A stretch of DNA of 34,726 bases from a virus, in IMG/VR virus record IMGVR_UViG_3300028835_002670, positions 1 through 34,726 of that record; one strand, given 5' to 3'. The first letter of the stretch is position 1, and every line of letters starts with the position of its first letter. This document shows positions 1 to 20,956 of the stretch, one piece after another. The notes under the pieces were generated by a model. It made no database searches, had not been told where the DNA came from, and was given only the letters and a program-made list of their open reading frames with translations. Both the position numbers and the translations under genes were made by a program.

Positions 1-398
1 TGAGGAGTGTGGCTGTGAGGAGTATGAGTATGAGCTACATCCGAATGAGGAGTATGTATATGAAGCTCATCCTGATGAGGAGTATGGCTGTGAGGAGTAT
101 CTACATGAGGTGTATGATTATGAGGAGTATCCACATGAGCAATATCATCGTGAGGAGTATGAGAATGAGCAGTATCCGAATGAGGAGTATGACTGTGAGG
201 AGTATGTATATGAAGCTCATCCTGATGAGGAGTATGACTGTGAGGAGTATCTACATGAGGAGTATGACTGTGAGGAGTATGAGTATGAGGAGTATCTAAA
301 TGAGGCTGATGTTGATGGGAAATGTCTACATGAGGAGTATGACTGTGAGCACTATCACCATGAGGTGTATGAGTATGAGGAGTATCGTAATGACCCAT
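1..398 (-). CDS. Repeat-only His/Asp pentapeptide protein (partial, runs off left edge)
   Basis: The minus-strand frame opens at ATG 398 and is uninterrupted to position 1, giving at least 132 residues. After Met it consists only of 26 five-residue units in perfect register, such as PHTHT, PHGDS, AHSHT, PHVDT, PHQDE and LHIHT. About 14 HxH pairs alternate with HxD units. The units match the C-terminus of the tail-tip gene 5 kb away, so the likely role is a tail needle or fibre extension; that is inference from similarity. The start is uncertain: an in-frame TAA lies immediately before the chosen ATG and I see only a weak AGGAAA-like sequence upstream. It follows the GT2-DUF483-like gene by 30 bases in the same direction. 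The C-terminal end is outside the window, so total length and any non-repeat domain are unknown. Confidence 0.7.
   Translation of the reverse strand, partial: MGHYDTPHTHTPHGDSAHSHTPHVDISHQHQPHLDTPHTHTPHSHTPHVDTPHSHTPHQDELHIHTPHSHTPHSDTAHSHTPHDDIAHVDTPHNHTPHVDTPHSHTPHQDELHIHTPHSDVAHTHTPHSHTP
6..395 (-). repeat. Pentapeptide (15-bp) tandem repeat array 1
   Basis: There are twenty-six 15-bp coding units, consensus [P/A/L]-H-x-[D/H]-x, with CAT ACT CCT CAC-like codons recurring throughout. A longer block (a PHQDE LHIHT pair plus its neighbours) occurs twice, which suggests growth by duplication of multi-unit segments. The array resembles the one at 5637-6014 in sequence and orientation. Confidence 0.9.
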
Positions 399-428
399 TT
401 ACATATAGAACCATAATAAGTTTCCTAT

Positions 429-2147
429 TCACTCTTTTATTAAATTGTTAGGATAAACTAATCCCCTTTCAGCCTCAGGAGGAATATAATCACCCTCAAA
501 CTCTACCACAAAACGCTCAACACTACCACAAGAAGGCACAACAGCATAAACTATCGGTGTTCTCACTAGAGCTATCCCATGATAACAGTCCCAACTCACA
601 GGCATCCTTAAAAGCTTCACAACCTTATCTATAAGAGGAGAATTAAGTTCTCGTGCCAACTCCAACCGCTCTTCTGTAATTTTTTTAGTCCCTTGACAAT
701 CAAACGAACAAGGAAGATGAAAAGCAATCCGAACACTTAAGAAACGAAGTGCAGGATTAAATAGCTCATAAGACTTTACTCTAATATAACGAGACTCTTT
801 GTGACTACCAGATGTGTTAAGAGCCGCCTGCCAAACAGGGTCATGATAACCCTTAAGCCAAACATCAACAAAAAACCGACAACAACATTCAGGATAACCT
901 AATAAAATACCCATAGTATAATCATCCTCTTGCTCAACTGCTTTTCTAAAAGCCTCTAAATCATCCATATTCTTAGAAAGAATACAACAAACCATAGCGG
1001 GCTCTCCCTCACGAACAGGATAATGTTTATTAGTAAATCCCTGAACTCCCCCCACTCTACGAACAATAGCTGAGACCAAGCCTTTCTGCTCCCATTCATC
1101 TTGAAATTTCGAATAATATTTTTCTTCTACAGTCTGCCAAGAACAAGGTCGCTGTCCTCTCACAACACTCTCTACTTCCATATCCTGTAACAGACAAAGA
1201 GCATCAGAAAGAACTGGTTCCCATTCTTCTTTTGCCTTCTGATTAAGCCAAACCTTTCTTCCAAAGTTGTCTAAATCAAAGTTTTGTAGTAATTCCATTT
1301 TAGAACCTCCTTGCATGTCACTCAATTTATTGTAACAAAGTCCTGTTGTTTTATTCAACCAATTTGTATCAAACAACTCATCTCTCACTACGTATCGAGA
1401 CTGATAAGCTAAACCCTTCATAATTTCGGGTAAAGCAGAATGAACCTCTCCTTCTCCTACAACACCACCTGTATAAAAAACTCCTGCCCTCTCTACACTT
1501 GCAAGCTCTTCATTCATTAGTTTATCCGCAACAGCCGTATTCTCAGGAAATAACCGATGAAAGTGATAAAACTCAAGGTACGAATCAATCTCAGGAGGAA
1601 GATTAGAAGAAGTAAAACCTTCTCTTATACTTCTATCAGGCTCTACAAAAATATCATCTCCTGCTCGAAACAATCTTAAGTTAGATTGCTTCTTAAATAT
1701 CCGAATTGTTTTATATGTTGAGCCTCGACAATAATTGCGGTCAAAAGAGTCCCATTTAACCTCTACCATTCCTGTTCTAATCCCCTTACAACCAGATTCA
1801 TCGGCTTTTATTATTGATTCTTTTAACTTCACAATATCATGTTCATGCCAAAGCTCATCCCCCTGCACATTAATTATCCAATCTCCCTCTGCACAGAAAA
1901 CCAAGTCATTCAAGGAGCTATCTATATTCTCACAATTTGGAGAAGGCACCCAAGCATGTTGAAAAATTTTCACCTTCTCAGGAAAAGCCTCTCGCAACTT
2001 ACACAGAGCCCTCCAAGTTTTATCAGAACTACCACCGTCCACAACCAAAAACTCGTCAACAACAGGCAACACCGATAAAATACCCTCAAGAAAAGGAAAC
2101 CCCCCAACAATTCCATTCTTTATCGCCATAATACCAGTTACTTTCAT
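429..2147 (-). CDS. Glycosyltransferase family 2 fused to a DUF483-like Cys-rich domain
   Basis: Residues 1 to about 230 look like a GT-A family 2 glycosyltransferase: an N-terminal MAIKN strand, VDGGSSDKT (36-44) for nucleotide-sugar binding, and QGDE (95-98) in the place of the usual DxD motif. The C-terminal part (about 380-572) carries LGYPECC (416-422) and HLPCSFDC (477-484), which resemble the uncharacterised DUF483 family; the clustered Cys residues suggest metal binding. The ATG overlaps the stop of the upstream B12-type radical SAM gene by four bases (ATGA), so the two are probably translationally coupled. Downstream lies the repeat-only protein. I infer that it glycosylates a phage structural protein or a host surface glycan. 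GT2 is fairly secure; DUF483 is from motif memory. Confidence 0.75.
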   Translation of the reverse strand: MKVTGIMAIKNGIVGGFPFLEGILSVLPVVDEFLVVDGGSSDKTWRALCKLREAFPEKVKIFQHAWVPSPNCENIDSSLNDLVFCAEGDWIINVQGDELWHEHDIVKLKESIIKADESGCKGIRTGMVEVKWDSFDRNYCRGSTYKTIRIFKKQSNLRLFRAGDDIFVEPDRSIREGFTSSNLPPEIDSYLEFYHFHRLFPENTAVADKLMNEELASVERAGVFYTGGVVGEGEVHSALPEIMKGLAYQSRYVVRDELFDTNWLNKTTGLCYNKLSDMQGGSKMELLQNFDLDNFGRKVWLNQKAKEEWEPVLSDALCLLQDMEVESVVRGQRPCSWQTVEEKYYSKFQDEWEQKGLVSAIVRRVGGVQGFTNKHYPVREGEPAMVCCILSKNMDDLEAFRKAVEQEDDYTMGILLGYPECCCRFFVDVWLKGYHDPVWQAALNTSGSHKESRYIRVKSYELFNPALRFLSVRIAFHLPCSFDCQGTKKITEERLELARELNSPLIDKVVKLLRMPVSWDCYHGIALVRTPIVYAVVPSCGSVERFVVEFEGDYIPPEAERGLVYPNNLIKE

Positions 2148-3589
2148 TGAACTTTTCCTTCCAAAAACAATGACAATGTTTTCAAATAAAATTCAGACCT
2201 TGCAGCCGAATCAGGATACCCTCTTTGCCAAACCACCTGAGAAACTTTTTCAAGAAGAATCCTAACCCCAGCATCAAAAGGGAATACTCGAATTTTTTTA
2301 TTAAAAGAAAAATCCGTCCTCGGAATCCTGACTTTTTCCGTTTGAATAAGCAAATCAGGCTTTCTAAAAATACTTGCTCCTACAAAAGGCATAAGATATA
2401 GAGTAATACCAACCTCCGCTCCCTTAGAAATATGCTCAATACATTTATCCACAGTCAACTGAACATCAGAAAGACTGCATCCTGGAGAAGACAAAATAAT
2501 ATTAATAAAAGGAGTCATCCTTGCTCGGTATGTCCATTCAAGTGCTCTATTAATCTGGTTTACTGTAATCCCCTTCTGATATTCCTCAAGAATTCTCTCA
2601 GAAAACGACTCTACACCATAAGAGACCATTCGGAACCCTGCTAAAGCCATCAAACGAAGAAGCTTCTCAGAAACATCAGAGATTCTTGTCTGACATATAA
2701 AAGACAAAGAATTAAGAAGAATCTGTTTCTTTTTATAACCAATTACTTTCTTACAAAATTCCGAAATTCTCTCCCTTCCATGCTTCCCTTGAATAAAGTT
2801 ATCATCCTGAAAAAAGATTGTTTGAATAGAAGGATATACTGAAACTATCCGTAAAACCATAGCTAGAAGTCCCTCCGAAGGAATCATAGCGAAGAGAGGT
2901 TTTTCCCCATAAGAAAATTTCAAGAAGTTAGTTGAACTACAAAAAGCACAACCATTAGGACAGTAACTAGAAGTGTATAACCGCACCGTTCTTATTTTTA
3001 ATTTATTCGGATTCACTTTCTCTATCATTGCCCAATACTTCTCATAAGGAATCTCATTAAAATCCATTTCAACAGTGAGGTCACAAAATTCTTTTTTTCT
3101 CAAAGGTTTTTGGTTTCCAATATAACACCTTCCAGAACTTTTCAACAATCCAGTATTTACTATCTCCGCTAACGGATGTTCACCTTCACCAAAAATAATA
3201 TAATCAAGAGGAGAATGTTCAGCAATTTGAGATGAATTAAATGTCGCTTCTTCTCCTCCTGCAACTAAAACCGCTTGAGGATTTTTCTCATGAGCATACC
3301 ACATCAAAGATAAATCATGCTCAAGTGTCAAATGAGAGGGGCTGAAACCGATAACATCAAACTCCGAAGCAAAGTCTTCCAAGAACTTATAGGGGTCAGA
3401 TAGAACAGGGTCAAAAACTTCAACAGGATGTTTAAGAAACCCCTTTATCCGATACAGCCCTAAAGGAGGAGCAGGATAACCTGAGATGTTCCCAGACACT
3501 CTAGTTTCTTTGTAAAGGCATGTTTCAACATCAACTGTACAGCCATTTACCCTGTTATAAGCACTAATTAATAGAATCCTCTTCGACAT
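2144..3589 (-). CDS. B12-binding-type radical SAM protein
   Basis: Residues 1-160 resemble a cobalamin-binding Rossmann domain of radical SAM enzymes: PPLGLYRIKG near 41, DVIGFSPSH near 78, LVAGGEEAT near 108 and IIFGEGEH near 131. The radical SAM core follows, with the 4Fe-4S motif C210-x3-C214-x2-C217 (CPNGCAFC). The architecture is that of class B methyltransferases and related B12 radical SAM enzymes, which act on unactivated carbons of peptides, lipids or RNA; the substrate cannot be read from sequence. Its start overlaps the stop of the SPASM radical SAM gene by one base (TAATG) and its stop overlaps the next start (ATGA), so three genes form one tightly coupled unit directly downstream of the tail tip. 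I see no classical cobalamin-ligating DxHxxG motif, which is common in this class. Confidence 0.85.
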   Translation of the reverse strand: MSKRILLISAYNRVNGCTVDVETCLYKETRVSGNISGYPAPPLGLYRIKGFLKHPVEVFDPVLSDPYKFLEDFASEFDVIGFSPSHLTLEHDLSLMWYAHEKNPQAVLVAGGEEATFNSSQIAEHSPLDYIIFGEGEHPLAEIVNTGLLKSSGRCYIGNQKPLRKKEFCDLTVEMDFNEIPYEKYWAMIEKVNPNKLKIRTVRLYTSSYCPNGCAFCSSTNFLKFSYGEKPLFAMIPSEGLLAMVLRIVSVYPSIQTIFFQDDNFIQGKHGRERISEFCKKVIGYKKKQILLNSLSFICQTRISDVSEKLLRLMALAGFRMVSYGVESFSERILEEYQKGITVNQINRALEWTYRARMTPFINIILSSPGCSLSDVQLTVDKCIEHISKGAEVGITLYLMPFVGASIFRKPDLLIQTEKVRIPRTDFSFNKKIRVFPFDAGVRILLEKVSQVVWQRGYPDSAARSEFYLKTLSLFLEGKVQ

Positions 3590-5208
3590 TACATATCTCC
3601 ATGAGGTCTGTCTCCATAAGGTTTATCCCCGTGAGGCTTGTCTCCATAAGGCTTATCCCCATGAAGTTTATCTCTAGAAGATTCATCTCCATAAGGCTTA
3701 TCCCCATGAAGTTTATCTCTAGAAGATTCATCTCCATAAGGCTTGTCTCCATAAGGCTTATCCCCATGAAGTTTATCTCTAGAAGATTCATCCCCGTGAG
3801 GCTTGTCTCCATAAGGCTTATCTTTATAAGAACTATCTCCATGCAGTACATGAGTATGCCCACTATCTCCATGAGGTCTGTCTCCATAAGGTTTATCCCC
3901 GTGAGGCTTGTCTCCATAAGGCTTATCCCCATGAAGTTTATCTCCATGAGGTCTGTCTCCATATCCACACGCATCTCTAGTAGGCGATTCAAGACACTGT
4001 TGTTTTAATTCTTCCAAATTCTTTCTTTTATTTTGAGCCCAACTCGAACCATCCTCTCCTAACGAAGCTTGTACCAAAGAAGGGGAAGGAAAGCAAGGAT
4101 AAAATGTTGGTAATGGATGAACATTAGGCATTAACCCCTTTATCTTCTCCTCAACATGAGAAAAAAGCTGCTTCCAAGCTTCACACTTTCTCGTTCGATT
4201 CCTCCAGTCATTATCGATACCCGCCCCTGGACAACCACCATTACATATAGACCAATATCGACAATCTTTACAACCCTTCTGTTCTTGAGGAGTCTGAAAA
4301 AGCATACGGTATCTCGCATCTCCTAGACCCTCAGCCGCTAAAGCTTGAATACCATCAATAGCCGCTCCCCCCTTAAGACAACCTCCGATACTCCCGTCAC
4401 CCATAATTGTTCGCTCAGAATTAGTAGCCCAAACGTCACACTGAGTAAAAATACAGGTTGCATTTCTTGTATAGCCCAGCATAAGGTCAACAACCTCTCT
4501 AAAAGGCAACCAAGCCAACACAGGGTCAGAAAAACAAACATCTGCCAACTGACAATAAGCATACCCCATCTCTTCGTTCGTCAACTCTTCCTCGTCTCTA
4601 TTCTCTTCTTCAGATATAAGAGCTTCATTTATTCGAACCCAACAAACTCCAAACTCGTCTCGAAGCCTCAATAGAAACTTTATAAAAGCAGGTAATCTTT
4701 CTTTTGAAGCATTGTATTTAGACAAGAGAGTGATAACACTAAGGTCTAACCCCGCATCTCTACACAGCCGCATGTTATCAAGAACCTTATCCGTTTCTTT
4801 CTGAATATCCCCTTCAGGCAGATATGCCGCATTCCATCTACCATAGTTCAGCTCCCAAGTATCTCCATCAATGCTAACCCCTACAGAAAACCTATACTCT
4901 TTAAACAATTCAATTAACTGAGGCGTAATCAAAGTTCCATTTGTTTGAATATTCCCAGACCCATATAGTCCATGAATTTTGATAACCAATTTTTCAACAT
5001 CCTCAAATTTCATCATCAAAGGCTCTCCGCCATGAAGACAAGCATGAGAATACCGAAGGTTCTTTGGTGTTTTCGAAGTCTCCTCTTCCAAAGTTTTTAG
5101 GATTGCATCAATGTCATAACTTGTATCAGAATGAACTGACCTAATCCGATTCTCATAACACCTTCTACACAATCCATTGCAACCAATCGTTTTTATACTA
5201 ATAGGCAT
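3589..5208 (-). CDS. SPASM-domain radical SAM peptide maturase with a fused 25-unit repeat tail
   Basis: The N-terminus has C10-x3-C14-x2-C17 (CNGLCRRC) for the radical SAM 4Fe-4S cluster and GGEP at 60-63. A SPASM-type Cys region follows: C252, C257, C277, then C313-x2-C316-x5-C322-x3-C326 and C342, expected to bind auxiliary clusters. This is the layout of sulfatase maturases and RiPP peptide maturases such as PqqE and cyclophane-forming enzymes. From residue 415 to 539 the protein becomes 25 perfect pentapeptides such as PHGDK, PYGDK, LHGDK and SSRDK. This tail is not part of any maturase family known to me. It matches the repeat family of the adjacent tail-tip protein, including one HxH unit (GHTHV). 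The start has a good GGAGG site. The tail may be a substrate, a docking segment or a virion part; I favour substrate or docking. Confidence 0.88.
   Translation of the reverse strand: MPISIKTIGCNGLCRRCYENRIRSVHSDTSYDIDAILKTLEEETSKTPKNLRYSHACLHGGEPLMMKFEDVEKLVIKIHGLYGSGNIQTNGTLITPQLIELFKEYRFSVGVSIDGDTWELNYGRWNAAYLPEGDIQKETDKVLDNMRLCRDAGLDLSVITLLSKYNASKERLPAFIKFLLRLRDEFGVCWVRINEALISEEENRDEEELTNEEMGYAYCQLADVCFSDPVLAWLPFREVVDLMLGYTRNATCIFTQCDVWATNSERTIMGDGSIGGCLKGGAAIDGIQALAAEGLGDARYRMLFQTPQEQKGCKDCRYWSICNGGCPGAGIDNDWRNRTRKCEAWKQLFSHVEEKIKGLMPNVHPLPTFYPCFPSPSLVQASLGEDGSSWAQNKRKNLEELKQQCLESPTRDACGYGDRPHGDKLHGDKPYGDKPHGDKPYGDRPHGDSGHTHVLHGDSSYKDKPYGDKPHGDESSRDKLHGDKPYGDKPYGDESSRDKLHGDKPYGDESSRDKLHGDKPYGDKPHGDKPYGDRPHGDM
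3592..3966 (-). repeat. Pentapeptide (15-bp) tandem repeat array 2 in the radical SAM gene
   Basis: Twenty-five 15-bp units end directly at the stop codon. Many form a 45-bp higher-order unit (SSRDK LHGDK PYGDK/E) repeated three times in the middle. The outer blocks (PYGDK PHGDK PYGDR PHGD) recur at both ends, a sign of segmental duplication. Position 4 of the unit is Asp in all but one unit, and position 2 is His or Tyr except in the SSRDK units. Confidence 0.95.
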
Positions 5209-5226
5209 TACTCTCCTCCCTTTTAA

Positions 5227-5529
5227 TTAATATTCGAACCATAAATCTCCGTTATTACCATCACCCCCACCTGGAGCAGCATCAGAAACATAAAACTTTC
5301 TGCCCGCTTCAGCATTATCCAAAAGAACAATAGGAGGCATCATGCTCTTATCCACATCACCAGAAGAATTCAGCTTAATAGGATGCTCTGCATCCCCCGC
5401 TCCCGCCGAAGCATCTTTAAAAACCTTCTTTTTATGAAAAAACTTAGCAGTTTCATGAGCAACACCAGCTTTTTGACCTATATGTTTTTGAAAGTCTGAT
5501 TCCGAACTAAATGTTTTCTTTTTTGCCAT
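5227..5529 (-). CDS. Small tail-fibre-like protein
   Basis: This 100-residue protein has a basic N-terminus. Its middle, HPIKLNSSGDVDKSMMPP, resembles hinge sequences of phage tail fibres (KLNxxGxIDxSMLP type). The C-terminus GNNGDLWFEY resembles the GDxWF(E/D)x ends of many phage tail proteins. Both are pattern matches from memory. It has a clear AAGGTGG ribosome-binding site and sits between the tail-tip gene and the radical SAM cassette, fitting a fibre or tip accessory protein. Because a small gene lies just upstream of a SPASM enzyme I considered a RiPP precursor; the fibre-like motifs and lack of a repeated core make that less likely, but it could still be a substrate. Confidence 0.6.
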   Translation of the reverse strand: MAKKKTFSSESDFQKHIGQKAGVAHETAKFFHKKKVFKDASAGAGDAEHPIKLNSSGDVDKSMMPPIVLLDNAEAGRKFYVSDAAPGGGDGNNGDLWFEY

Positions 5530-5633
5530 TTTATTCCACCTTTATAAAATCTTATATAAAACTCTCTTCATATAGACTATACCGACAAATCATCTTTCTA
5601 GTAATCTCTCTTCTTCCATAACAGCTCACCTCA
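5530..5633. other. Intergenic gap between tail tip and cassette
   Basis: This 104-bp gap is one of the longest in the window and separates the tail-tip gene from the radical SAM cassette. On the minus strand it holds a poor promoter-like pair (TTACTA, 17 bases, TATAGT) and the ribosome-binding site of the small fibre-like gene. I see no terminator hairpin. Readthrough from the tail genes is the simplest assumption. Confidence 0.4.
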
Positions 5634-7778
5634 CTAAAAAGTATGAATATGAGGAGTATCTTGATGAGGAACATGGGTGTGTGGAGAATCCGAGTGAGGA
5701 GTATGACTATGAGGAGTGTCTGTATAAGGAGAATCCTCATAAGGAACATCTAAATGAGGTGCATGGCTGTGAGGAGTATCCTCATGAGGGGTATGAATAT
5801 GAGGAGTATCGTAATACATATCTCCATGAGGCTCACCTCCCCCGTCTCCATACATGTCACCATGCCAATCAGAATGAGAAGTATGAATATGAGCACTATC
5901 ACCATGAGGAGTATGGCTGTGGGGCGTGTCTTGATGAGAAGTATCCTGATAAGGAGTGTGGCTATGAGCTACATTCGAATGAGGAGTATGAGTATGAGCT
6001 ACATCCACATGAGGAACATCCCCCATAGATTGAAAATCATCTACCAAAACAAGATAAGTCCGTTCAGTATTTGTATTCTTAACAACTTGCCTTACTCTAA
6101 ACACCTTTTCATCCCAAGCTCCCGAAGAATCCACTGCCCTTTTCCGAGAAACTTTTACTTTCATCGTAGGAAAAAGTTTAAACGCTTTTATTCCACACGA
6201 AGTATCCACAATCTTAACTGGATTGCTGCACATATTTCGAATCGCAGTCGCAATCGAATTAGCATCGGAATCCTCCCGAAGATATGTTTCTAATATCAAG
6301 GTCTCTCTCACCCCATATTTATACAAAACCTCATAATTATTCTTTTCCACAACTTTAAATTCTTGCGTTTTAGGATTTTGGTCATATTGAAATTTAATCT
6401 TATTCCGTAGAAAAGTATCATTCAATCCCACCTGCCAGTCTTCCCCAAAATCTCTATCCTCCAGCTTCATTACATCCGCAGGAACCGTCTCTTCATACGA
6501 CACAAAAGCAAGCTTACCTTCTTCAGTAGGAGTAAAAAAAGATACAACACCACGACCGATTGTTTGAAGAACCTGCCTAGAACTCCTATCCACATCCAGA
6601 TAGATACACTGCTCATAAGGTCGCACAGTATCCACGTTATCAAATGAATCCAAGTCCAAATCATCATCAATATAATCCAGATAAGTCTTCAAAATATCTT
6701 TTGCTATCTCTCCCCCCGTCTCCATTAAAACACCACCATCAATTACATACCCTTTAGCATCAACCTCCAAAGTATCCCCTTCTATGAGAGGAATAAGTAA
6801 AGTAAACTCCGCATTATTCAAATCAGTAGTATAATGAGTATTTTCAATTAAAGGAACAGAATAATCTATATCTCCAAAATTTAACCGAATCTCAGTAAAC
6901 TCTTTAATTTTTCGGCTACCCGCTATTTTCCACTTACTACCCGTAGGATAAGGAGGGTCTCCATACGGCTCTATCACCCTGTTTGAATCTATACAAACAG
7001 GAATTATATTTGTCTTTATCCCATAAAAGACAGGAATAGCCAATCCCTCCGCCCCTGTTTCCAATTTAGGATAATTACTCAACCAATAATGGTCAATCGG
7101 AATCGCTGCATATGCTCCAACTCGAATATCTTTTACAGTAAAAATAACCTCCTCATCTTTCACATAATAATTAGATGCCCTTCCTCCAAAATAAACAATA
7201 TATTCAGTATAAGGGAGGTCTTCGCCTCCTAATTTGATTAACATTTTACAATTAGTCCAAAGATAATCATCAGCCGCTTTATCAAACCAGCCAGGATTAT
7301 TCATCTTAAAACTACCAAAATTAAACTTATAAGCCCCTTCCACAATATCATCAACACTCAAATCCAACATTGGAAGACTATTCTGACGAATGATAGGCAT
7401 ATACTGAACCCCATTAAACTCACAAGCATCGGTAGAAAAATACTTCCAGACAAAAGCAACTACTACCGTATCAGTAGAACTTGAACTCAAATTATCATTA
7501 TCAAAACAATGGACATATAAAACCTGATTAGCCTTATCAAACCACCAACTCCCAGCAGTAGACTTAACATCTGCTAAATTACTTTTCTCCGTCATTTCCT
7601 GTCCATCATCAGCCGTAGCAGAAACCTTTACTTCAAAGCAAACATGAGAATATGTATCACTCCCTTCAGATATCCAACTTTCTCCTGCTGGATAATGAGC
7701 ACGAGGGTTTGCTTCCACCAAAGCACGTAGGCTAGGATTAGCCAAATCCGCTAACTCATCCCAAGTTGTTACACCCAT
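5634..7778 (-). CDS. Tail-tip/hub protein with a His/Asp pentapeptide needle-like C-terminus
   Basis: The gene lies directly after the distal-tail-like gene, where tail-tip or tail-associated proteins are encoded. Residues 1-588 form a beta-rich, Cys-poor body that I cannot assign to a named family; the middle (about 100-580) fits a hub-like tip protein by position and composition. From 589 to 713 the protein is made of pentapeptides such as PHVDV, AHTHT, PHSHT and PYQDT: ten units, a Gly/Asp-rich break (about 639-658), then eleven more, with nine HxH pairs in total. In T4 gp37 such HxH motifs bind iron ions along a trimeric receptor-binding needle, so a metal-stiffened needle is a sensible inference. 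Start: GAGG site, ATG two bases after the upstream stop. Confidence 0.8.
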   Translation of the reverse strand: MGVTTWDELADLANPSLRALVEANPRAHYPAGESWISEGSDTYSHVCFEVKVSATADDGQEMTEKSNLADVKSTAGSWWFDKANQVLYVHCFDNDNLSSSSTDTVVVAFVWKYFSTDACEFNGVQYMPIIRQNSLPMLDLSVDDIVEGAYKFNFGSFKMNNPGWFDKAADDYLWTNCKMLIKLGGEDLPYTEYIVYFGGRASNYYVKDEEVIFTVKDIRVGAYAAIPIDHYWLSNYPKLETGAEGLAIPVFYGIKTNIIPVCIDSNRVIEPYGDPPYPTGSKWKIAGSRKIKEFTEIRLNFGDIDYSVPLIENTHYTTDLNNAEFTLLIPLIEGDTLEVDAKGYVIDGGVLMETGGEIAKDILKTYLDYIDDDLDLDSFDNVDTVRPYEQCIYLDVDRSSRQVLQTIGRGVVSFFTPTEEGKLAFVSYEETVPADVMKLEDRDFGEDWQVGLNDTFLRNKIKFQYDQNPKTQEFKVVEKNNYEVLYKYGVRETLILETYLREDSDANSIATAIRNMCSNPVKIVDTSCGIKAFKLFPTMKVKVSRKRAVDSSGAWDEKVFRVRQVVKNTNTERTYLVLVDDFQSMGDVPHVDVAHTHTPHSNVAHSHTPYQDTSHQDTPHSHTPHGDSAHIHTSHSDWHGDMYGDGGGEPHGDMYYDTPHIHTPHEDTPHSHAPHLDVPYEDSPYTDTPHSHTPHSDSPHTHVPHQDTPHIHTF
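5637..6014 (-). repeat. Pentapeptide (15-bp) tandem repeat array 3 in the tail-tip gene
   Basis: About 22 units of [P/A/S]-[H/Y]-x-[D/H]-x end at the stop codon apart from one final Phe. The register breaks once, at a Gly-rich segment about 50 codons from the array start. HxH and HxD units alternate irregularly. The array is close in sequence to array 1 and more distant from array 2. Confidence 0.93.
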
Positions 7779-7779
7779 C

Positions 7780-8538
7780 TTAATCCAACCTCAACCAGGA
7801 CAAACTAATAGTTTTAAACAAATTTCCAGGAATCCTACGACCATACCGACCCTCAAAAATTATATATCTCATTGTTTCTTTGGCTTGCGTATGGTCTTCA
7901 ACAAAAACAAGAGGAAACCTTTTTCTTGTTTTTCTATAAACTCTTTCCAGCCTACTCTCATCCCCAAGCATTACTTCATAAGTAACAGTTTTAGCTTCTA
8001 CCTCTCGCCCCTGCATCACATTCAAGTGACCATCCTTGGAATAAATATGAGCACTTGTATCATCCAAATCATTTGTTGCTCCATACTCATAACCTCGACT
8101 AAGCTGAATGGAACTCCCCAAAACAATAACTCCCAACTGCACATAAGAAGCCACAGTAGGGTCATCCATCACAATTCTATATTTAGAAGCAGAAACTTCT
8201 GCATAACTAACTATAGCTCGCCCATTACTTGAATCATAATCAAAATTAGCCACGTCTACCCACTGCGTCGTATACATCTGAAGTTTCAAAGTAGTATAAG
8301 AACCTGTAAGATTTAAGCCGTAAAGAGCACATCCTGTCGTAGCAATAACAACACTTCCCTCTGATTCTATTTCTATCGTAGCATTCTTAGTTCCTGCTAA
8401 ACTTCTATAAACATAATCCACCCATATATTCTTAATTTTCGAAGGTTCATAACCTGGCTGGAAGTTTGAAGAAGGAACAACCGAAATATCACCAGCCCTC
8501 ACAATTTCATCATAAATAAATACATTATCACCACTCAT
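7780..8538 (-). CDS. Distal tail / minor tail protein
   Basis: This 252-residue beta-rich protein is encoded between the tape measure and the tail-tip gene, the usual place of the distal tail (Dit-like) or first minor tail protein. Sequence features are alternating hydrophobic strands, a Tyr/Asp-rich centre and a basic C-terminus. I do not recognise a specific motif, so the assignment rests on gene order. The GGAGGTG site sits inside the end of the tape-measure gene, nine bases before ATG, and the stop lies one base before the next start. Confidence 0.6.
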   Translation of the reverse strand: MSGDNVFIYDEIVRAGDISVVPSSNFQPGYEPSKIKNIWVDYVYRSLAGTKNATIEIESEGSVVIATTGCALYGLNLTGSYTTLKLQMYTTQWVDVANFDYDSSNGRAIVSYAEVSASKYRIVMDDPTVASYVQLGVIVLGSSIQLSRGYEYGATNDLDDTSAHIYSKDGHLNVMQGREVEAKTVTYEVMLGDESRLERVYRKTRKRFPLVFVEDHTQAKETMRYIIFEGRYGRRIPGNLFKTISLSWLRLD

Positions 8539-8541
8539 AAC

Positions 8542-11500
8542 TTAGTACACCTCCTCTGCATTCGTTTCAAAATCTCCATACTTCTTCCCTTCCTTTATAT
8601 AAGGAACAATAGCTTTATAAAACTGTCGTCCGTCTATACTAATAATTGCAACTTGCATACCCTTTCCGCCTTCCTCCACAGAAATAGGCTGGGCTCCCCC
8701 ACCAAAAAATTGACGCAAAGCCTCAGAAAGAGCTGGCGGAAGAATCGATTCTCCCCTATGAGCATAAATCAAAGCATTCTGTCCTAGATTAGGAATCCCA
8801 AACTGTGCTCCTCTTCCACCTCTACCCCCATTACTAGGAAATTTCGGAAAATGCTTCCCCACCGTATCAAGAGCATCAGTCAACCCCCGACTCCCTGTAA
8901 GAATTTCAATCAAATCTCTGATAGCTTCTATAACTCCTTCAAACCCTTCTGTAAGAATTTCAGTCATGCTCTTAGCATCCTCACCAAGAACCCCATACTC
9001 ATCTGCCATCTCAATCATTTTTAATATATCCTCATCTAAAACAAGTCCATATTCCTCAGCCCAATACTGAAGCCTCCGCAGAGTAGGAGCCATCACTGAA
9101 AGAGCTTGCTCCTGAGTCAATCCAGCATCCAGTAACCTCTGATAATATTCATATGCCTGAGCAGCAACATCAGCAAAAGCTTTGGCTCCTTTTTCACCGA
9201 AGAAAGAAGCAGAATGCCCCAATGCGTCCAAAACCATCAGATTCCCTTCTATAGCATCAAATAAATCTTTATTAAGTCTATAAATCAAAGCAATATCAAG
9301 AAGAGCATCAATCGCCTCTCCTCCTGAAATTCCGAGTGCATCCATTCTAAGCTTCAAAATTAGAAGACTTTCTCCTATAGCAGCAAAAATTTCTATCCAA
9401 CTCATACCCGCCGCAATCATAGAATTGACTATAGTTATAGCAATATTGGAAAGACGCTGTAATTCTTCCGCAGTATTACCAGCAGCCCACACCATCGCAT
9501 TCAAACCCTCAACCGCAGTATCCAACCATTTACGACAATATTCATCAAGGACTTTGACTTCAATACCAAGCTCTTGTGTTCTTTTAATCAACTCAAGTAT
9601 CGCTGCACTACCTTCAAGTCCAGCCTCCTCCATTGCATCAAGAAGCTCCTCCCAAGCATCACTAAACATCTCTAGATATTTTCGTGAAAACTCCGTTTGT
9701 CTCTCCATGATTTCTAACCACTTTATTAACTCTTCCAAAGCCTCGGCATATTCATCAACCCACCGAGATACTTCCTTACCCCCATCACCACCAACACGTT
9801 TGTCCGTCGGAGCTTGCAATTGCTCCTTAGAAATAGTCTCTGCAATTTCTCCTCCCTTCCTCCTAACCTCTTCCATTTTATCCAGGATTGCCTGCATTTC
9901 CGCATCAACTTTCTGTCTTAAAATTCCAAAAACTGTAAGAATATGTTTAACTATACCCGCTACAACCCAAGCCATAAAAGCAACAGCAAAAAATTTCATC
10001 ATGACTTTAAGACTTTTTATAAATGCCGCAAAAGCTAACTTCATAGTTATCAAACCTTTAGCCCAAGTTAAAAGCATTTCCGCAACCATCTGACCTATAA
10101 GAGTAAGGATTGACTTCACGAAACTTCCAAAATTTTTATTTAGATTCTTCAAATCTACAATTATATTAGAAAAAAACCGACCAAAATCACGAGTTAATTT
10201 ACGGAAAAGACTCCGTGATAACGTATCTATAGAGCCAAAAGTTTTCTTCCATACTTTCAACCCTGCTGCTAATTCTGCTTTATTAGTGATTCCCATTTCT
10301 GACATCAACTCAAAATACATCCGAAATGTCTGATTATAGCGTGCCTGTTTTTCAAATTCCGACCAAGAAGTCATATCAATCTCACTCTTCGTGCTTTTAG
10401 CCAAATCTTCTATTCGACGAAGATTACCCACTCCCAAAGCTAAATTCAACATCTCATTTAATTTCAATAACTTGTCTGTGTACTCTTCCCAAATTGCAAA
10501 CATATCACTCTCTGCCTGCATCTCAAGAGCTACCCACTTATCCAGTTTCACCTTTTCCAATTTAATAATCTTTTTAGTTTGTTCAACAATATCATCCCAT
10601 TCTTCCCCTCTCAATTCATTCCTCATCATTTCCATGTTCGTGTCAATACGGGTAAAGTCACTTATTAAAGTTTTATGGAGAGCCAATGCTTTCTTCGCAT
10701 ACTTCTCTTGAGCAGTTAACTTCGTATCTAGCAACTTAATAAAATTCTCTAAAAGAACCTTATTCTCAAAATCCCCAAGCCTCTCCAAATTATTTTTTAT
10801 AAGTTCAAGCTGAGTCCGATGTTCCTTCACAAAAAGCTTCATCACCTCCGCACTATCCCCATACGCCTCTACCCATTTGGTCTTCCATGTATCCGCCAAC
10901 GCCTCTACACTTGTTTCCAAAGCCTGCAAAGGAGGATGCATTTTCTCAAAAATAACTAGATATTCCCGCATAAATTCCTCATATTTCATCTCTCTGAAAA
11001 CTTCAGGTTGAACCGCTAATGCTTCTTCAAGCCTTTTTATATATTTAGGAATTTCCTTCTCTGTGAGTTTCTCCAATGACAACCCTAAAGAAGTCAAATA
11101 TGCCTGAACCAGCACCCATTTCGGGTCTTCAGGTGTCAATTCCATTAACTCTCCTAACAACTTTATGGAATCTTCTAATTCTTCTTTACTAAGTACTCGT
11201 GCTAAACCTCTAACATGTTGACTTGACGACTCCACTATTTTATTCCAATCCCTCTGAAGACGACTCAAGAATCTCATAGCTTCTATAGATTTCTCCATAA
11301 TAGCTAAGTTTGTCCTTTGTGCATCCATCCATTCTTTTATCCGCTTTGTACTATATCCCCAATTTCGAGCAAGAGCTTCTAAAATATAATTAAACTCCGT
11401 CATGTCTGTCTCTCCTGCCCTAAGTGCTTCAATAAATGCAGTAACGTCTTTTAACATACCCCTATTAACCACTCTAAACTCTTCGACAAGAGCCTTTACA

Positions 11501-13146
11501 ATATCTCCATACATACCTACTACGTTAAAGCTTTTACGGAGAGCTGCCAGCACATCAGCCTTACCCAACGCTCGAAGCTCTTTAGCAACATTTCCAGTCG
11601 CCTCACCTGCTGATTTAGCCGCAGCAACATATAAATTCAATTCATCTCTCAATGCTTTCATCGCTTTAGATTCCCGATGCATTGTAGCTATTGCCCTGTC
11701 TGATGAAGCTATCCACATGTCTAAAGCAAATTTAATAGCTGCATATGCTATAACACCAGCAATTACACCTCCTCTCATAAGCATAAAATACTTATGTCTA
11801 ATCATAAGAGCCTTATTCGATGCACTGAGCGTCGCAGTATGTTTAATCTCAGCTATTGTCATACTTTTTAAAACATTCACATACGCTTTTGCAAAAGTTA
11901 TATTTGTCAACTGTGCAGCCGATGAAACTTTATACGCTTTAGCTAACCGCCACACTATTGGAATAGCAGCCAATATCACCACACTTGACCTCATCAAAAC
12001 AGCAATGAAACTACTAGCTAAACGAATAAAACCGCTTAACCATTTAAAACCCTTACCCTCCCACAATTCATACATTACCTTTAACATCTTCGCTCCTGCC
12101 GCTTTTACCTCCTCCGCTACAGTCCCAATCATCTTACCATAACCTCGTGAGACTTCTCCTCCATCTTCAGTAGCATCACGAATCTTCTGCAACAACCGTA
12201 CATAATCTTTGAATCCTTCACCTGCCAGAACAAAAGCTCCCCTCAAAGCTCTTTGTCTCCTAAATATCTTAGGAAGAATATCTCCATAACGAGCACTGGC
12301 TTCCACTAAACGTCTTAGAACACCCAGCAACCCAATTCCTTCAAAAGCATTTCTACCCCATGCCCAACCAAGTTTTTGAAACTCTTTCTTAGCTTTATCA
12401 ATAGGTCGCATGAATGCGAGCATCATCCTATTTAAGGCTGTCGCTGCTTCAGTGACATCCAAACCACGCTGAGTCATGACAGCCAATGCAGCAGAAATCT
12501 CATCGATATGAACCCCCATAGCTGCTGCGGTAGGCAGAACTTTTCCAATAGCCTGATTCAGTTCTTCGGCATGGTATTTTCCCTCCATAACCGATGCAAA
12601 AAGCATATCAGACTTTCCTCGCATTTCATCAGCAGTATACCCGTAAGCCTTCATAATCGCAGTCAAACTGGATGCTGCGGTAGCCAAATCTGTAATTCCT
12701 GCTTTTGCATATTTTGCTGACACTACCAAAAGCTTAAATGCTTCCACGGGTTTAGTTACACCAGCAGACATAATTTCATATAAACCTTTAGTAAGGTCAG
12801 TAGCCTTCCCCAGGTAGGGACTTAACTGCAAAAGGTCTCTAGTAACCACTCGGAAAGACGCAGCCATCTCCTTATTCCTCATATCCACAAGAGTAGACAC
12901 TTCGGCGAGACGGGTTTGTAAACTTATAGCTTCCCCTATCAATTTAGTTAGAACACCAAAAAAGGTGAAGATTGCGGTATATGTTGCGATACGTGTGAGA
13001 GCTAACTTAAGATAACCTGTCTGCTTTATCGTCTGCCGCATCTTGTCAGTAGTACGCTCAAAATGCGTACCCATCTTCTCAGTAGTTGCAGACACCCCTT
13101 CATCTGTAGCAACAAACCTTACGCCAGCCTCAAAATCTTCCGCCAT
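8542..13146 (-). CDS. Tail tape-measure protein (TP901-type)
   Basis: At 1534 residues this is by far the longest gene in the tail block. The first 260 residues match the TP901-1-type tape-measure core: an N-terminal coiled segment, a hydrophobic stretch near 50-70, and an Ala/Thr-rich region with LMxxGVTKP-like and LPTAAAMGV motifs. Further hydrophobic segments lie near residues 385-405, 460-480 and around 1020-1070 and fit membrane-interacting tape-measure segments. Much of the rest is long amphipathic helix. Using the general rule of about 0.15 nm per residue, the tail would be roughly 230 nm, a long flexible siphovirus tail. The ribosome-binding site is weak, so translation may depend partly on ribosomes leaving the frameshifted chaperone, which ends 33 bases upstream. 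Confidence 0.93.
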   Translation of the reverse strand: MAEDFEAGVRFVATDEGVSATTEKMGTHFERTTDKMRQTIKQTGYLKLALTRIATYTAIFTFFGVLTKLIGEAISLQTRLAEVSTLVDMRNKEMAASFRVVTRDLLQLSPYLGKATDLTKGLYEIMSAGVTKPVEAFKLLVVSAKYAKAGITDLATAASSLTAIMKAYGYTADEMRGKSDMLFASVMEGKYHAEELNQAIGKVLPTAAAMGVHIDEISAALAVMTQRGLDVTEAATALNRMMLAFMRPIDKAKKEFQKLGWAWGRNAFEGIGLLGVLRRLVEASARYGDILPKIFRRQRALRGAFVLAGEGFKDYVRLLQKIRDATEDGGEVSRGYGKMIGTVAEEVKAAGAKMLKVMYELWEGKGFKWLSGFIRLASSFIAVLMRSSVVILAAIPIVWRLAKAYKVSSAAQLTNITFAKAYVNVLKSMTIAEIKHTATLSASNKALMIRHKYFMLMRGGVIAGVIAYAAIKFALDMWIASSDRAIATMHRESKAMKALRDELNLYVAAAKSAGEATGNVAKELRALGKADVLAALRKSFNVVGMYGDIVKALVEEFRVVNRGMLKDVTAFIEALRAGETDMTEFNYILEALARNWGYSTKRIKEWMDAQRTNLAIMEKSIEAMRFLSRLQRDWNKIVESSSQHVRGLARVLSKEELEDSIKLLGELMELTPEDPKWVLVQAYLTSLGLSLEKLTEKEIPKYIKRLEEALAVQPEVFREMKYEEFMREYLVIFEKMHPPLQALETSVEALADTWKTKWVEAYGDSAEVMKLFVKEHRTQLELIKNNLERLGDFENKVLLENFIKLLDTKLTAQEKYAKKALALHKTLISDFTRIDTNMEMMRNELRGEEWDDIVEQTKKIIKLEKVKLDKWVALEMQAESDMFAIWEEYTDKLLKLNEMLNLALGVGNLRRIEDLAKSTKSEIDMTSWSEFEKQARYNQTFRMYFELMSEMGITNKAELAAGLKVWKKTFGSIDTLSRSLFRKLTRDFGRFFSNIIVDLKNLNKNFGSFVKSILTLIGQMVAEMLLTWAKGLITMKLAFAAFIKSLKVMMKFFAVAFMAWVVAGIVKHILTVFGILRQKVDAEMQAILDKMEEVRRKGGEIAETISKEQLQAPTDKRVGGDGGKEVSRWVDEYAEALEELIKWLEIMERQTEFSRKYLEMFSDAWEELLDAMEEAGLEGSAAILELIKRTQELGIEVKVLDEYCRKWLDTAVEGLNAMVWAAGNTAEELQRLSNIAITIVNSMIAAGMSWIEIFAAIGESLLILKLRMDALGISGGEAIDALLDIALIYRLNKDLFDAIEGNLMVLDALGHSASFFGEKGAKAFADVAAQAYEYYQRLLDAGLTQEQALSVMAPTLRRLQYWAEEYGLVLDEDILKMIEMADEYGVLGEDAKSMTEILTEGFEGVIEAIRDLIEILTGSRGLTDALDTVGKHFPKFPSNGGRGGRGAQFGIPNLGQNALIYAHRGESILPPALSEALRQFFGGGAQPISVEEGGKGMQVAIISIDGRQFYKAIVPYIKEGKKYGDFETNAEEVY

Positions 13147-15700: not shown

Positions 15701-16330
15701 TTAAACTTCCTTCCTTAATACAAAAGTATAGATGTCCTCTCTCCCACATTTAATCTCATCATCCCGAAGCTCAAGTAGTTTAAAATCAAAAGAATCCATA
15801 TATCTAATGAAAGAACGCTTAGTAAAATAATAAAAATGCTCATCCTCTCTCAAATGCCTAGAACTTAATAAATGTTCCAAGTCTTTAAAAATTGGAATCG
15901 AGACAAAAACAAACTGCCTTTTTATTTTATTAAGAATCCTCCCAGGATTCTCGATGTGTTCAAGACTATCAAAAAAGGTTATCCCCTCCATCTCTTCAAA
16001 ATTCTCCTCATAAGGATTATAAAATAACTCCAAAGATTTAAGATACTCTACAGCTTTGGGATTTACGTCATAGCCCACACAGCTACCTCTCAACTTAATA
16101 AATGTACCACAACCAACTCCAATATCCAAAACCTGTCCTTTAGTATAGCGGTTCACAAGATTAACTCTAAAAGAATTCAAACATCTCCCTATTTCTGTAC
16201 TTTCATACATCACATATTTATTAAAATATTCATCATCATATACACGCTGGTTTACAGGAAAATACCCAATTTCTTGTTTCGGCAACCAGACCAAACTCTT
16301 CTCCATCTCTTTTCTAATTACTTCATCCAT
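15701..16330 (-). CDS. Class I SAM-dependent methyltransferase
   Basis: Motif I is VLDIGVGCGTF (residues 67-77), followed by VGYDVNP and FFDSLEHIENP near 120, typical of Rossmann methyltransferases that act on sugars or other small groups. The C-terminal HLREDEHFYYFT segment resembles methyltransferases in polysaccharide gene clusters. I place the start at ATG 16330 because TGGAGG lies six bases upstream; a longer reading from 16384 would overlap the preceding gene by 62 bases and lacks such a site. With this start the product is 209 residues and overlaps the previous gene by eight bases. It forms a unit with the other methyltransferase and the GT9-like gene, so sugar methylation is the likeliest role. 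Confidence 0.82.
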   Translation of the reverse strand: MDEVIRKEMEKSLVWLPKQEIGYFPVNQRVYDDEYFNKYVMYESTEIGRCLNSFRVNLVNRYTKGQVLDIGVGCGTFIKLRGSCVGYDVNPKAVEYLKSLELFYNPYEENFEEMEGITFFDSLEHIENPGRILNKIKRQFVFVSIPIFKDLEHLLSSRHLREDEHFYYFTKRSFIRYMDSFDFKLLELRDDEIKCGREDIYTFVLRKEV

Positions 16331-16931
16331 TCCATACCTCCAAACATACTCCTGAAAGCAAGGAATGTTCCCCAGCCACTTCACCTTCCATCCTAACTTC
16401 TTTTTCTCTGCACCAGCAATACTTTTTCATCTCTTCATCATAAGTAAAATATTGAATATCCACTAAATTTAACTCTTTAACTAACTCTTCCACCATCCTC
16501 TTATCATAAACAAACTGCCAGCCTTGATTCTCAAAACTTCCATAAGGTAAAGAACAAAGCAATCTCCCCTTATAACCCAAATAATTGAGACAGTACTGCA
16601 AAGCGTGCCTCTGATATTCTTTAGGATTTTCCACAGCCTTATTTCCATAAATCTCTAGCCCAATGTGCTCAAGAGTAGAGAGAAGCACCACGTTATCAAA
16701 TCGATGAAAGAATTTCCTACCAAGATTCATTATATCTCCCCTGACACACCGTTCCCTCCCTTCTGGTTCAATCTTTCTAGTGTCCACTCTACAAAGTTCG
16801 TAATCTTTATCTAATAACTCTTTTATATAGGTTGCTTCCTGAGAACCTACATCCAGTACCCGACCAGACTTCAAAGTTCGCAACATCCAACCCACTTCCA
16901 TAGCTTTTATCAGCTCACTTATTTTATTCAC
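16323..16931 (-). CDS. Class I SAM-dependent methyltransferase
   Basis: Motif I is RVLDVGSQEATY near residue 24, an acidic residue follows in CRVDTR, then CVRGDIMNL and the post-motif VVLLSTLEHIG. GRLLCSLPYG continues the fold, as in DUF268-like or sugar-associated methyltransferases. The start is GTG 16931, with AAGGA six bases upstream, overlapping the GT9-like gene by eight bases. The substrate is unknown; its position between a glycosyltransferase and a second methyltransferase suggests modification of a transferred sugar. It is less related to its neighbour than a recent tandem duplicate would be. Confidence 0.8.
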   Translation of the reverse strand: MNKISELIKAMEVGWMLRTLKSGRVLDVGSQEATYIKELLDKDYELCRVDTRKIEPEGRERCVRGDIMNLGRKFFHRFDNVVLLSTLEHIGLEIYGNKAVENPKEYQRHALQYCLNYLGYKGRLLCSLPYGSFENQGWQFVYDKRMVEELVKELNLVDIQYFTYDEEMKKYCWCREKEVRMEGEVAGEHSLLSGVCLEVWNG

Positions 16932-17892
16932 TTCGGTTCCTTAAGTTTTCAAACCTCTCTATTATTGTTTCCTCAGGAATCTCCTTATTACAAATATATT
17001 CATTCCTTGTATTAACTCCCTCACAAAAAGGATTTGGGACGATATATTCAAACTTCTCCAGCCCCATCTTTTTACCAAAAATTTCTTCTGGCTCTTTGCT
17101 TCCCCCAAAAATACAAAAACACTTTGTCCTTATTGCAATCCCCAACAAAGCAAAAAAACTCGGATGTACTATCATCATATCAGCAAGTTTAATTAAACCA
17201 AATAGTATAGGGAGAGACGCTTCTGCATGAATCAACTCTTTATCAACCCCAGCCAGCCCACCATCTAACCACTCTTCATCTTCCTCAGTATGAGCAAGAG
17301 ATATATAATAATACTCTTCTTTATACTTATCTATTAAAAGCTGAGTATGCTCCATCTTCGGATTCCTCAAAAAATATGTAGAAGGGTATCCTCTTCGGAC
17401 TGTAGGCGGATTTACAAGACAAACCTTCTTCCCTTCAGTATTCCAAGAGTCTAACAATTTTTTCGTCCCCGTCACCCAACTTCTTTTCAAAGGAAAAAAG
17501 AAATCAAAATCAATTATAGAATCATAAGCTTTAAAAAATTCCTTATTCAATCTATCCCTTCGTGCATGGACTTCTCTAGCATCTCCTCCCATCCAATTAT
17601 TCGCATAAGGCATCCTACAAATTGTCCAAGATATTTTATGAATACCATCCAAATTTACAGATGTCCAAATCTCTTTCTTCTGTCTCTCAGCATTCCTCCT
17701 CTGTACCCTAAAATGTCGAGGAAGATGGTCAGGAAAAACAAACTTCACATTTGGAATATCCCAATAAAATTCTGGAACTGGTGTTCTCAAATATATAGTA
17801 TGATAACTCTTCGCCAACCCTTTTATCAAAATCCGTTGACAGACATTATCTCCAAAACCATCACAGCCCAAAAAATATAGCTCCTCATACAT
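16924..17892 (-). CDS. GT9/heptosyltransferase-like glycosyltransferase
   Basis: This 322-residue protein has a GT-B look: an N-terminal Gly-rich segment (LGCDGFGDNVCQRIL) at the position of the GxGD loop of heptosyltransferases, a central CLVNPP strand starting the second domain, and a C-terminal LADMMIVHPSFFALLGIAI plus FGGSKEPEE, matching the donor-sugar region of GT9 enzymes. The ATG lies seven bases after a GGAG inside the end of the upstream tail gene. It opens a three-gene insert with two methyltransferases. It could decorate the phage tail or modify host surface sugars; sequence alone does not decide. Confidence 0.72.
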   Translation of the reverse strand: MYEELYFLGCDGFGDNVCQRILIKGLAKSYHTIYLRTPVPEFYWDIPNVKFVFPDHLPRHFRVQRRNAERQKKEIWTSVNLDGIHKISWTICRMPYANNWMGGDAREVHARRDRLNKEFFKAYDSIIDFDFFFPLKRSWVTGTKKLLDSWNTEGKKVCLVNPPTVRRGYPSTYFLRNPKMEHTQLLIDKYKEEYYYISLAHTEEDEEWLDGGLAGVDKELIHAEASLPILFGLIKLADMMIVHPSFFALLGIAIRTKCFCIFGGSKEPEEIFGKKMGLEKFEYIVPNPFCEGVNTRNEYICNKEIPEETIIERFENLRNRSE

Positions 17893-18394: not shown

Positions 18395-18763
18395 TTAATT
18401 AACTCCTATTTGATGAGGACAATACCCATACATACTTATAACATTATTACAATTATAGCACAAAACTCTATACCCTTCAGGGAAATTATTTTTTATCAAC
18501 CAACTATAAAAAGTATGTCCCCCAGGACTGCCAAGTTTTCGTCTATGTTCATTACCTCTTCCATTTACATGGTCAATACACAAAAATTCATGAGTACTCT
18601 CCCCACAGCAAGCACACTTATCACCATAAGCCGCAAGTACCTCATCTTTCACTTTTTCTCTCCACCTCTTCCTTTGGGCTCGATATTTTTCCCGATTTCT
18701 CCCATAATAATCCTTAAAATATTTTCGGTGATACTCGTTATATACTTCCACACTACTAGACAT
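18395..18763 (-). CDS. HNH endonuclease (homing-type)
   Basis: A C50-x2-C53 pair and a C102-x2-C105 pair form a zinc site around D64-H65 (CIDHVNGRGNEHRR), the core of phage HNH nucleases of about 120 residues. The N-terminus is a basic helix rich in Arg, Lys and Tyr for DNA contact. It is inserted between two neck genes with GAGGA as ribosome-binding site and leaves the neighbours intact. Freestanding HNH genes of this type are usually selfish homing endonucleases; a packaging role is known for some that lie next to the terminase, but this one does not. Confidence 0.88.
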   Translation of the reverse strand: MSSSVEVYNEYHRKYFKDYYGRNREKYRAQRKRWREKVKDEVLAAYGDKCACCGESTHEFLCIDHVNGRGNEHRRKLGSPGGHTFYSWLIKNNFPEGYRVLCYNCNNVISMYGYCPHQIGVN

Positions 18764-20897: not shown

Positions 20898-20956
20898 AAT
20901 ACAAACCTCCTCATAAAAGTTTCCCACCACCCAACCCAGCTCGATTATAAACCAAG

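Follow-up and report, generated by a model that had tools for sequence, protein, structure and literature searches.

A tripeptide repeat shared by a phage tail hub and its neighbouring radical SAM/SPASM enzyme, and its candidacy as a substrate for serial cyclophane formation

The tail-tip region of a tailed phage, recovered as a 34.7-kb virus record (the window, that is, the whole stretch of DNA analysed here), encodes a predicted tail hub protein and a radical SAM/SPASM enzyme that both end in arrays of the same short repeat. In relatives of this phage, the arrays follow a common rule, an aromatic residue at position i and Asp or Asn at i+2, and they are linked to a single clade of the enzyme. 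Cross-linking is proposed because this rule, with its free middle residue and free spacing, is the rule of cyclophane formation. We suggest that the enzyme joins residues i and i+2 of the arrays and thereby stiffens a fibre extending from the tail hub, a proposal that, taken as a whole, we consider probable. So far, radical SAM chemistry on peptides has been described chiefly for small ones, such as antibiotics; here it would apparently be directed at virus structural proteins, with up to 113 sites in each, in records that derive from viruses of bacteria and archaea or from prophage-like loci.

Repeat arrays and gene context in the phage

The genes of the phage lie on the minus strand and encode a Mu-type portal, capsid E, a tail tube and a tape measure protein, followed by the tail tip and the cassette (positions 1–7778). 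The features of this region are collected in Table 1. The DUF483-like domain, fused in this phage to a glycosyltransferase domain, accompanies the enzyme family constantly; near-invariant residues of the DUF483-like protein are E324, CC421-422, D436, R468 and C484. The B12-binding radical SAM protein encoded next to it had no counterpart in the cassettes of the relatives L006 and L007, and is therefore probably an optional accessory.

Table 1. Features of the tail-tip region and repeat cassette (positions 1–13146 of the window)
Feature	Position	Strand	Remarks
Truncated repeat protein, N-terminal part (MGHYDTPHTHTPHGD...); array 1	3–398	−	26 units HxD/HxH, period 5
Family-2 glycosyltransferase domain fused to DUF483-like domain (about 432–1310)	429–2147	−	
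B12-binding radical SAM protein without repeats	2144–3589	−	
Radical SAM/SPASM enzyme, 539 residues, core about 3994–5208	3589–5208	−	CxxxCxxC and 8 further invariant Cys
C-terminal array of the enzyme (array 2), (P-[H/Y]-G-D-[K/R])n, 22 units, predicted disordered	3592–3966	−	
100-residue protein, conserved at the corresponding place in L008 (7342–7641)	5227–5529	−	
Predicted central tail hub/tip protein, 714 residues, carries array 3	5634–7778	−	Fold match, residues 3–591
Array 3, hub C-terminus, 25 units HxD/HxH/YxD, predicted disordered (pLDDT <35)	5637–6017	−	
Tail protein between tape measure and hub	7780–8538	−	Gene order as for the 251-aa gene of L006
Tape measure protein	8542–13146	−	Context: tail module

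The initial annotation had described three arrays with a 15-bp period in a single orientation, and all three were recovered at the positions given there, on the minus strand. Array 1 keeps a spacing of 5 throughout and contains 14 HxH and 12 HxD units. Array 2 is made up of 11 HxD, 10 YxD and 1 HxH, the unit being followed by K (12) or R (3), and array 3 comprises 10 HxD, 9 HxH, 5 YxD and 1 HxN at spacings of 5 (20), 4 (3) and 8 (1). The initial annotation had called arrays 1 and 3 HxH-rich and array 2 HxD/YxD-rich with Lys. The number of motifs alone is a weak test, because shuffles of such H/D-rich sequence yield many units (means of 16.5, 6.7 and 13.0 for arrays 1, 2 and 3, respectively); the strong evidence for the arrays comes instead from the strict period and from the cross-genome data. 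Searches of Pfam, PHROG and NCBIfam gave no named match to the arrays, save a sub-threshold, low-complexity match of ORF 3–398 to the Spt5 CTD.

The protein bearing array 1 had been taken to be nothing but repeat, a claim that the sequence does not establish. ORF 3–398 runs past the contig end, and its probable counterpart, the second repeat protein of relative L009 (11744–13618), has repeat from its start, about 578 residues, followed by a Trp- and Lys-rich non-repeat domain of some 46 residues. The HxH form represents 54% and 30% of the units in the two virion arrays of this phage, 15% in L008 and 12–26% in L009, with a family median of about 1%. Frequent HxH is thus a hallmark of the clade formed by this phage and its two closest relatives, and is seen only there.

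Other features of the window are recorded here as separate observations. Methyltransferase-like and glycosyltransferase-like genes are located at 15701–17892 and 429–2147, within the structural gene block or next to it, so that the cassette may go together with glycosylation of the virion. A 57-bp repeat occurs twice at 20326–20438, at the C-terminus of the protein encoded at 20301–20930 (EAPPEEPVKDPVEE...). Finally, a small ORF amid the tail genes (18395–18763), judged by eye to be HNH-type endonuclease-like, is perhaps a homing endonuclease.

The tripeptide rule and its linkage to one enzyme family

Relatives were gathered by scans with the enzyme and with its DUF483-like partner, and none of these loci was gathered via the repeat. 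They include viral contigs, haloarchaeal records (L079, L080, L082), bacterial genomes (L077, L078, L081) and the cultured Thermus phages Cumys, phiMa and phiLo. When relatives were sought in viral_contigs and phages by the tail hub alone, none was found, whereas the enzyme query succeeded.

The residue rule was computed on 72 arrays from 45 loci, encompassing 10,244 residues. His at i was followed by D/N at i+2 in 94% of cases (1809 of about 1929), a percentage that is partly built in, since the arrays were delimited with His motifs. The values for the other aromatic residues, which are not affected in this way, were 55% for Trp (49/89), 44% for Phe (67/153) and 41% for Tyr (149/362), compared with shuffle means for W, F and Y of 15, 11 and 11% (maxima 26, 17 and 17%). 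No other residue tested had D/N at i+2 in more than 9% of cases. The starts of successive units lie 3 (15%), 4 (24%), 5 (41%) or more residues apart, and the commonest spacing is 5 in 25 loci, 3 in 9 and 4 in 8. Because the spacing between units varies, the unit is the tripeptide, and the pentapeptide of this phage is, as read from the sequences, one arrangement of it. Hence, the family proposed in the initial annotation is retained as a shared repeat, but its common element is the tripeptide [H/Y/W/F]-x-[D/N] and not a pentapeptide. The pentapeptide repeat proteins (PF00805, A(D/N)LXX) were also considered and rejected, as no match was obtained at E 0.1 and relatives do not share a five-residue unit. 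Ser, Thr and Gly predominate in the middle of the unit in virion arrays, and the repeat proteins, tail hubs included, range from 170 to 1421 residues and from 12 to 113 units.

The association between array and enzyme was then counted in both directions. The 78 enzymes collapsed into 53 clusters at 80% identity, and ORFs antisense to arrays were discarded as shadows. A DUF483-like gene was present in all 53 clusters (53/53), and a repeat ORF was found in the locus DNA examined for 49 of them, at no more than 100 bp from the enzyme gene in 35. The enzyme family constitutes one clade (support 98/99). Neither a repeat ORF nor a DUF483-like gene was detected, at the thresholds used, in 11 loci whose best enzyme hit is only a distant radical SAM protein; in one of these loci, L031, a His-rich ORF of weaker character lies at a distance of over 5 kb. 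Among the exceptions within the family, L029 and L043 are truncated by contig ends, with a 41-residue piece of array at the L029 edge, and in L027 and L080 no array was seen in the locus DNA examined, the enzyme and the DUF483-like partner being present. No array was found either in L083, whose enzyme is in two pieces and which was left out of the counts.

For the opposite direction, the search began from DNA patterns that encode five H-x-D units with a period of 5 or 4; it retrieved 178 stretches, 63 of them in frame in array ORFs. The enzyme was encoded in the DNA examined for 33 of these 63, and for none of the 115 non-array stretches. The 30 array ORFs that lacked it in the DNA examined are mostly simple repeats of identical units in improbable ORFs; L183, L222, L246 and other such hits of the pattern scan were discarded as low-complexity ORFs. 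For the genuine arrays in L143, L196 and L212 the enzyme is at another place in the record, L205 and L244 are located at contig ends, and for the array in L127 (G004) no enzyme was found in the 64-kb record, which does contain a DUF483-like gene.

Substitutions were counted in three diverged pairs of arrays. The aromatic position showed 26 synonymous and 3 replacement changes, every replacement being H<->Y, and the D/N position showed 17 synonymous and 6 replacement changes, five of them D<->N. The remaining array sites accumulated 63 synonymous and 42 replacement changes (Fisher p 0.003 and 0.004 for the two motif positions). These counts indicate that the motif positions are under purifying selection, replacement changes being suppressed there.

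The enzyme and the tail hub carrier

The cysteine residues of the CxxxCxxC motif (C10, C14 and C17) are invariant in 46/46 representatives of the enzyme family, and the enzyme matches PF04055 above cut-off. Eight further cysteines (252, 257, 277, 313, 316, 322, 326 and 342) are invariant among the same 46 representatives; in the predicted model, which resembles anSME and ChlB, the C-terminal cysteines would hold the two auxiliary clusters characteristic of SPASM proteins. The solved structures nearest to the model are ChlB with precursor leader (Z 30.6) and anSME with peptide (Z 29.5), and the profile match to anSME (4k36–4k39) reached an E value of 3e-29. The NCBIfam models YhhB, DynA, AmcB and anSME matched 46/46 representatives; all scores of the enzyme of this phage fell far short of the curated cut-offs (85.1 of 450 bits for DynA, 64.4 of 445 for YhhB and 58 of 425 for AmcB).

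At least two HxD motifs follow the SPASM domain in 42/53 enzymes, at a density about 60 times that of the enzyme cores, and most of them are HGD. The enzyme tails are therefore a class of their own with respect to the Ser/Thr/Gly middles of the virion arrays, and not simple copies of the array next to them; the DNA comparison of tail and hub array in this phage (51/100 shuffles) points the same way. Moreover, the tails, with their mostly Gly mid-unit residue, are closer to one another across phages than to the hub array of their own phage. The independent evolution of the three repeats, which the initial annotation had set against its view of one family, is thus seen in half: the enzyme tails match across phages. 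The family itself and a common role for it are upheld, as the tail hub, the enzyme and a further protein bear the same unit across relatives.

Two unusual arrangements of the enzyme gene were observed. The L048 enzyme (5938–7989) carries an apparent intein, with LAGLIDADG-type motifs and an ...ILHN|C end, at the third cysteine of CxxxCxxC. The loci L023 (6470–9917) and L025 (5973–9359) each encode two enzymes in tandem beside two repeat proteins, the enzyme tails being of the PHGDHTD type.

The carrier of array 3 was modelled together with 11 relatives. Its residues 3–591 resemble known hub/tip proteins with Z scores of 16–20, namely those of JBD30 (20.1), phage Chi (19.4), GTA (19.3), lambda (tip, gpJ; 17.8) and T5 (pb3; 16.6 over 478 residues). 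This predicted fold (gp27/gpJ/T5 pb3) and the position after the tape measure, which known hub/tip proteins share, identify it in all likelihood as the central tail hub/tip protein; the match is one of fold only, since the hub profile found no sequence match in the PDB. The protein differs from those hubs in its C-terminus, which consists of the motif array, predicted to be disordered as a monomer. As a separate observation on carriers, fibre proteins of collagen-like sequence (GPTGPT) that bear HxD/HxN arrays adjoin the cassette of a 105-kb phage (L274, 7995–12409), and another array protein (L143) is found at a separate position in that record.

Candidate chemistry, alternatives and related systems

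We regard it as very likely that the radical SAM/SPASM enzyme encoded alongside the arrays has them as its substrate. Cyclophane-forming enzymes connect the beta-carbon of residue i+2 with the aromatic ring of residue i, and the i/i+2 bonds described include Tyr-Asp (YxdB), His-Ala (HaaB), His/Tyr-Arg (YhhB) and Trp-Asn/Asp (PMC11002830). By analogy, the array rule matches the motif cross-linked by these three-residue-cyclophane ("triceptide") enzymes. The phage enzyme would abstract a beta-carbon hydrogen of the Asp or Asn residue at i+2 (perhaps of His, in this phage), and the beta-carbon would then be bonded to the aromatic ring of residue i, giving one three-residue cyclophane per unit. 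We favour a cyclophane as the product, with fair but lesser confidence. A series of such rings would convert the floppy C-terminal tail of the hub, and those of other proteins of the tail or its fibres, into a stiff fibre resistant to proteases and heat and used in adsorption, and the short array of the enzyme itself may keep the enzyme on its substrate or undergo modification too. The HxH units would need His as acceptor; they may be unmodified or metal-binding. To our knowledge, HxH has no precedent as an i/i+2 cross-link, and no known cyclophane enzyme has a leaderless large virion protein as its substrate. Whether poly-cyclophane, with tens to more than 100 C–C side-chain rings per ribosomally made polypeptide, is a tail-fibre component in many tailed bacterial and archaeal viruses, produced by a radical SAM enzyme of the virus with the same motif in its own sequence, is a wider proposition whose chances we rate as even.

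The arrays could be modified by the enzyme through some other reaction at the beta-carbon or backbone, such as oxidation, epimerisation or inter-chain cross-linking. The enzyme is about equally close, in sequence and fold, to anSME and other peptide maturases that do not make cyclophanes, and links between the chains of a trimeric hub would likewise fit a fibre. Nevertheless, i/i+2 cyclophanes are recognised by just this pattern, an aromatic residue at i and D/N at i+2 while the spacing and the middle residue are free, and a reaction on D/N only has no need for Trp, Tyr or Phe two residues before, so that we consider this course unlikely. Alternatively, the array might be a docking tag that recruits the enzyme to the tail or a complex, its real target being DNA or the glycan of the neighbouring glycosyltransferases. 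The HxD motifs in the enzyme tails and the glycosyltransferases of several cassettes are compatible with such a tag, and the available part of Kolesnik et al. 2024 (PMC11437467) proposes a DNA target for the Cumys module, with relatives beside deazapurine DNA-modification genes, in cyanobacteria. However, the number of units per protein far exceeds what a tag needs, the residue rule is strict and under purifying selection, and the nearest relatives of the enzyme act on peptides; we find docking improbable.

The initial annotation had offered co-trimerisation into one needle as an explanation, which would have HxH/HxD arrays binding iron or another metal along the spike, with the enzyme unrelated or merely docking. 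The abundance of HxH in this phage speaks for it, as do the trimeric state of hub proteins in known phages and the HxH metal sites known from phage spikes and fibres. Yet Trp and Phe, which do not bind metal, keep to the same rule, spacings of 3, 4 and 5 disrupt the in–out pattern of a strand, HxH amounts to about 1% of units outside this clade, and the radical SAM linkage and the enzyme-borne array are left unexplained, all of which makes a metal needle distinctly improbable. Its other suggestion was recombination, by which a selfish or neutral short repeat would have spread among genes with no shared function. Array lengths do differ, and the paired repeat genes of L025 and L065 exceed codon shuffles in DNA likeness, a sign of recent duplication in these relatives. 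In this phage, however, codon shuffles reached the observed DNA score in 12/100 (array 1 vs 3), 51/100 (2 vs 3) and 2/100 (1 vs 2) cases, and within the power of the test there is no clear excess over the likeness expected from the proteins. Since replacements at motif positions are suppressed and the association with one enzyme clade spans bacterial and archaeal records in 53 clusters, mere recombinational spread is highly improbable.

The preferred reading, cross-linking of residues i and i+2, brings the cassette closest to the triceptide systems (XncB, OscB/GrrM, YxdB, HaaB, YhhB, and DynA of dynobactin), in which a radical SAM/SPASM enzyme likewise stands beside an aromatic-x-polar protein. 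The i/i+2 motif, an aromatic-x-(D/N/R/K/S/A) substrate adjoining the enzyme and the NCBIfam similarity are shared. In contrast to those systems, the candidate substrate here is a long virion protein and not a short leader–core precursor, the enzyme itself bears the motif, a DUF483-like partner is constant and the cyclophane is a proposed product. Because both the short precursor and the curated family score fail, we do not file the cassette as a triceptide member. In the His-Xaa-Ser system (HxsA/HxsB/HxsC), a His-x-polar protein is putatively matured by radical SAM enzymes (PMC9062424), but the polar residue is Ser instead of Asp/Asn and two radical SAM enzymes are involved; membership was rejected on account of the predominance of D/N at +2 and of the HxsB model, which matched only 10/46 representatives, and weakly. 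The anSMEs share the fold and cluster layout of the enzyme; their target is one Cys/Ser of sulfatases, whereas the neighbour here is a repeat protein and not a sulfatase. Enzyme class and bond type are already known. As far as our searches show, a virion-protein substrate, a motif-bearing enzyme and a constant DUF483-like partner have not been described together in the open-licence literature, in which we found no paper linking phage tails, radical SAM enzymes and cyclophanes.

The Thermus phages Cumys and phiMa contain the same three-gene cassette (unknown gene, rSAM, DUF483), and our loci L092 and L093 are members of this module. The available part of the article reporting it (Kolesnik et al. 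2024, PMC11437467) describes the third gene of the Cumys module as encoding a protein of unknown function, proposes DNA modification, and names neither repeats nor a link to the tail. In our analysis, that third gene encodes a repeat protein of 343 residues (XKB90002.1) in which the motif occurs about 60 times, a probable substrate for a module whose role had earlier been guessed to lie in modifying DNA. Since the carriers Cumys, phiMa and phiLo are available in culture on T. thermophilus HB8, the matter lends itself to direct experiment. If the proposal is true, chemically cross-linked tail fibres would be a new route to the virus particle, yielding a covalent, heat-proof polymer, and an enzyme would be available for stiffening long repeat proteins.

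Several radical SAM genes in one phage genome have been reported for the Campylobacter phages CP220 and CPt10, which carry 11–12 (PMC2853527). The phage studied here has three such genes (2144–3589, 3589–5208 and 30265–32862), the last of which lies distant from the arrays and encodes a large B12-binding radical SAM protein of 865 aa, TIGR03960-like (220 of 462 bits).
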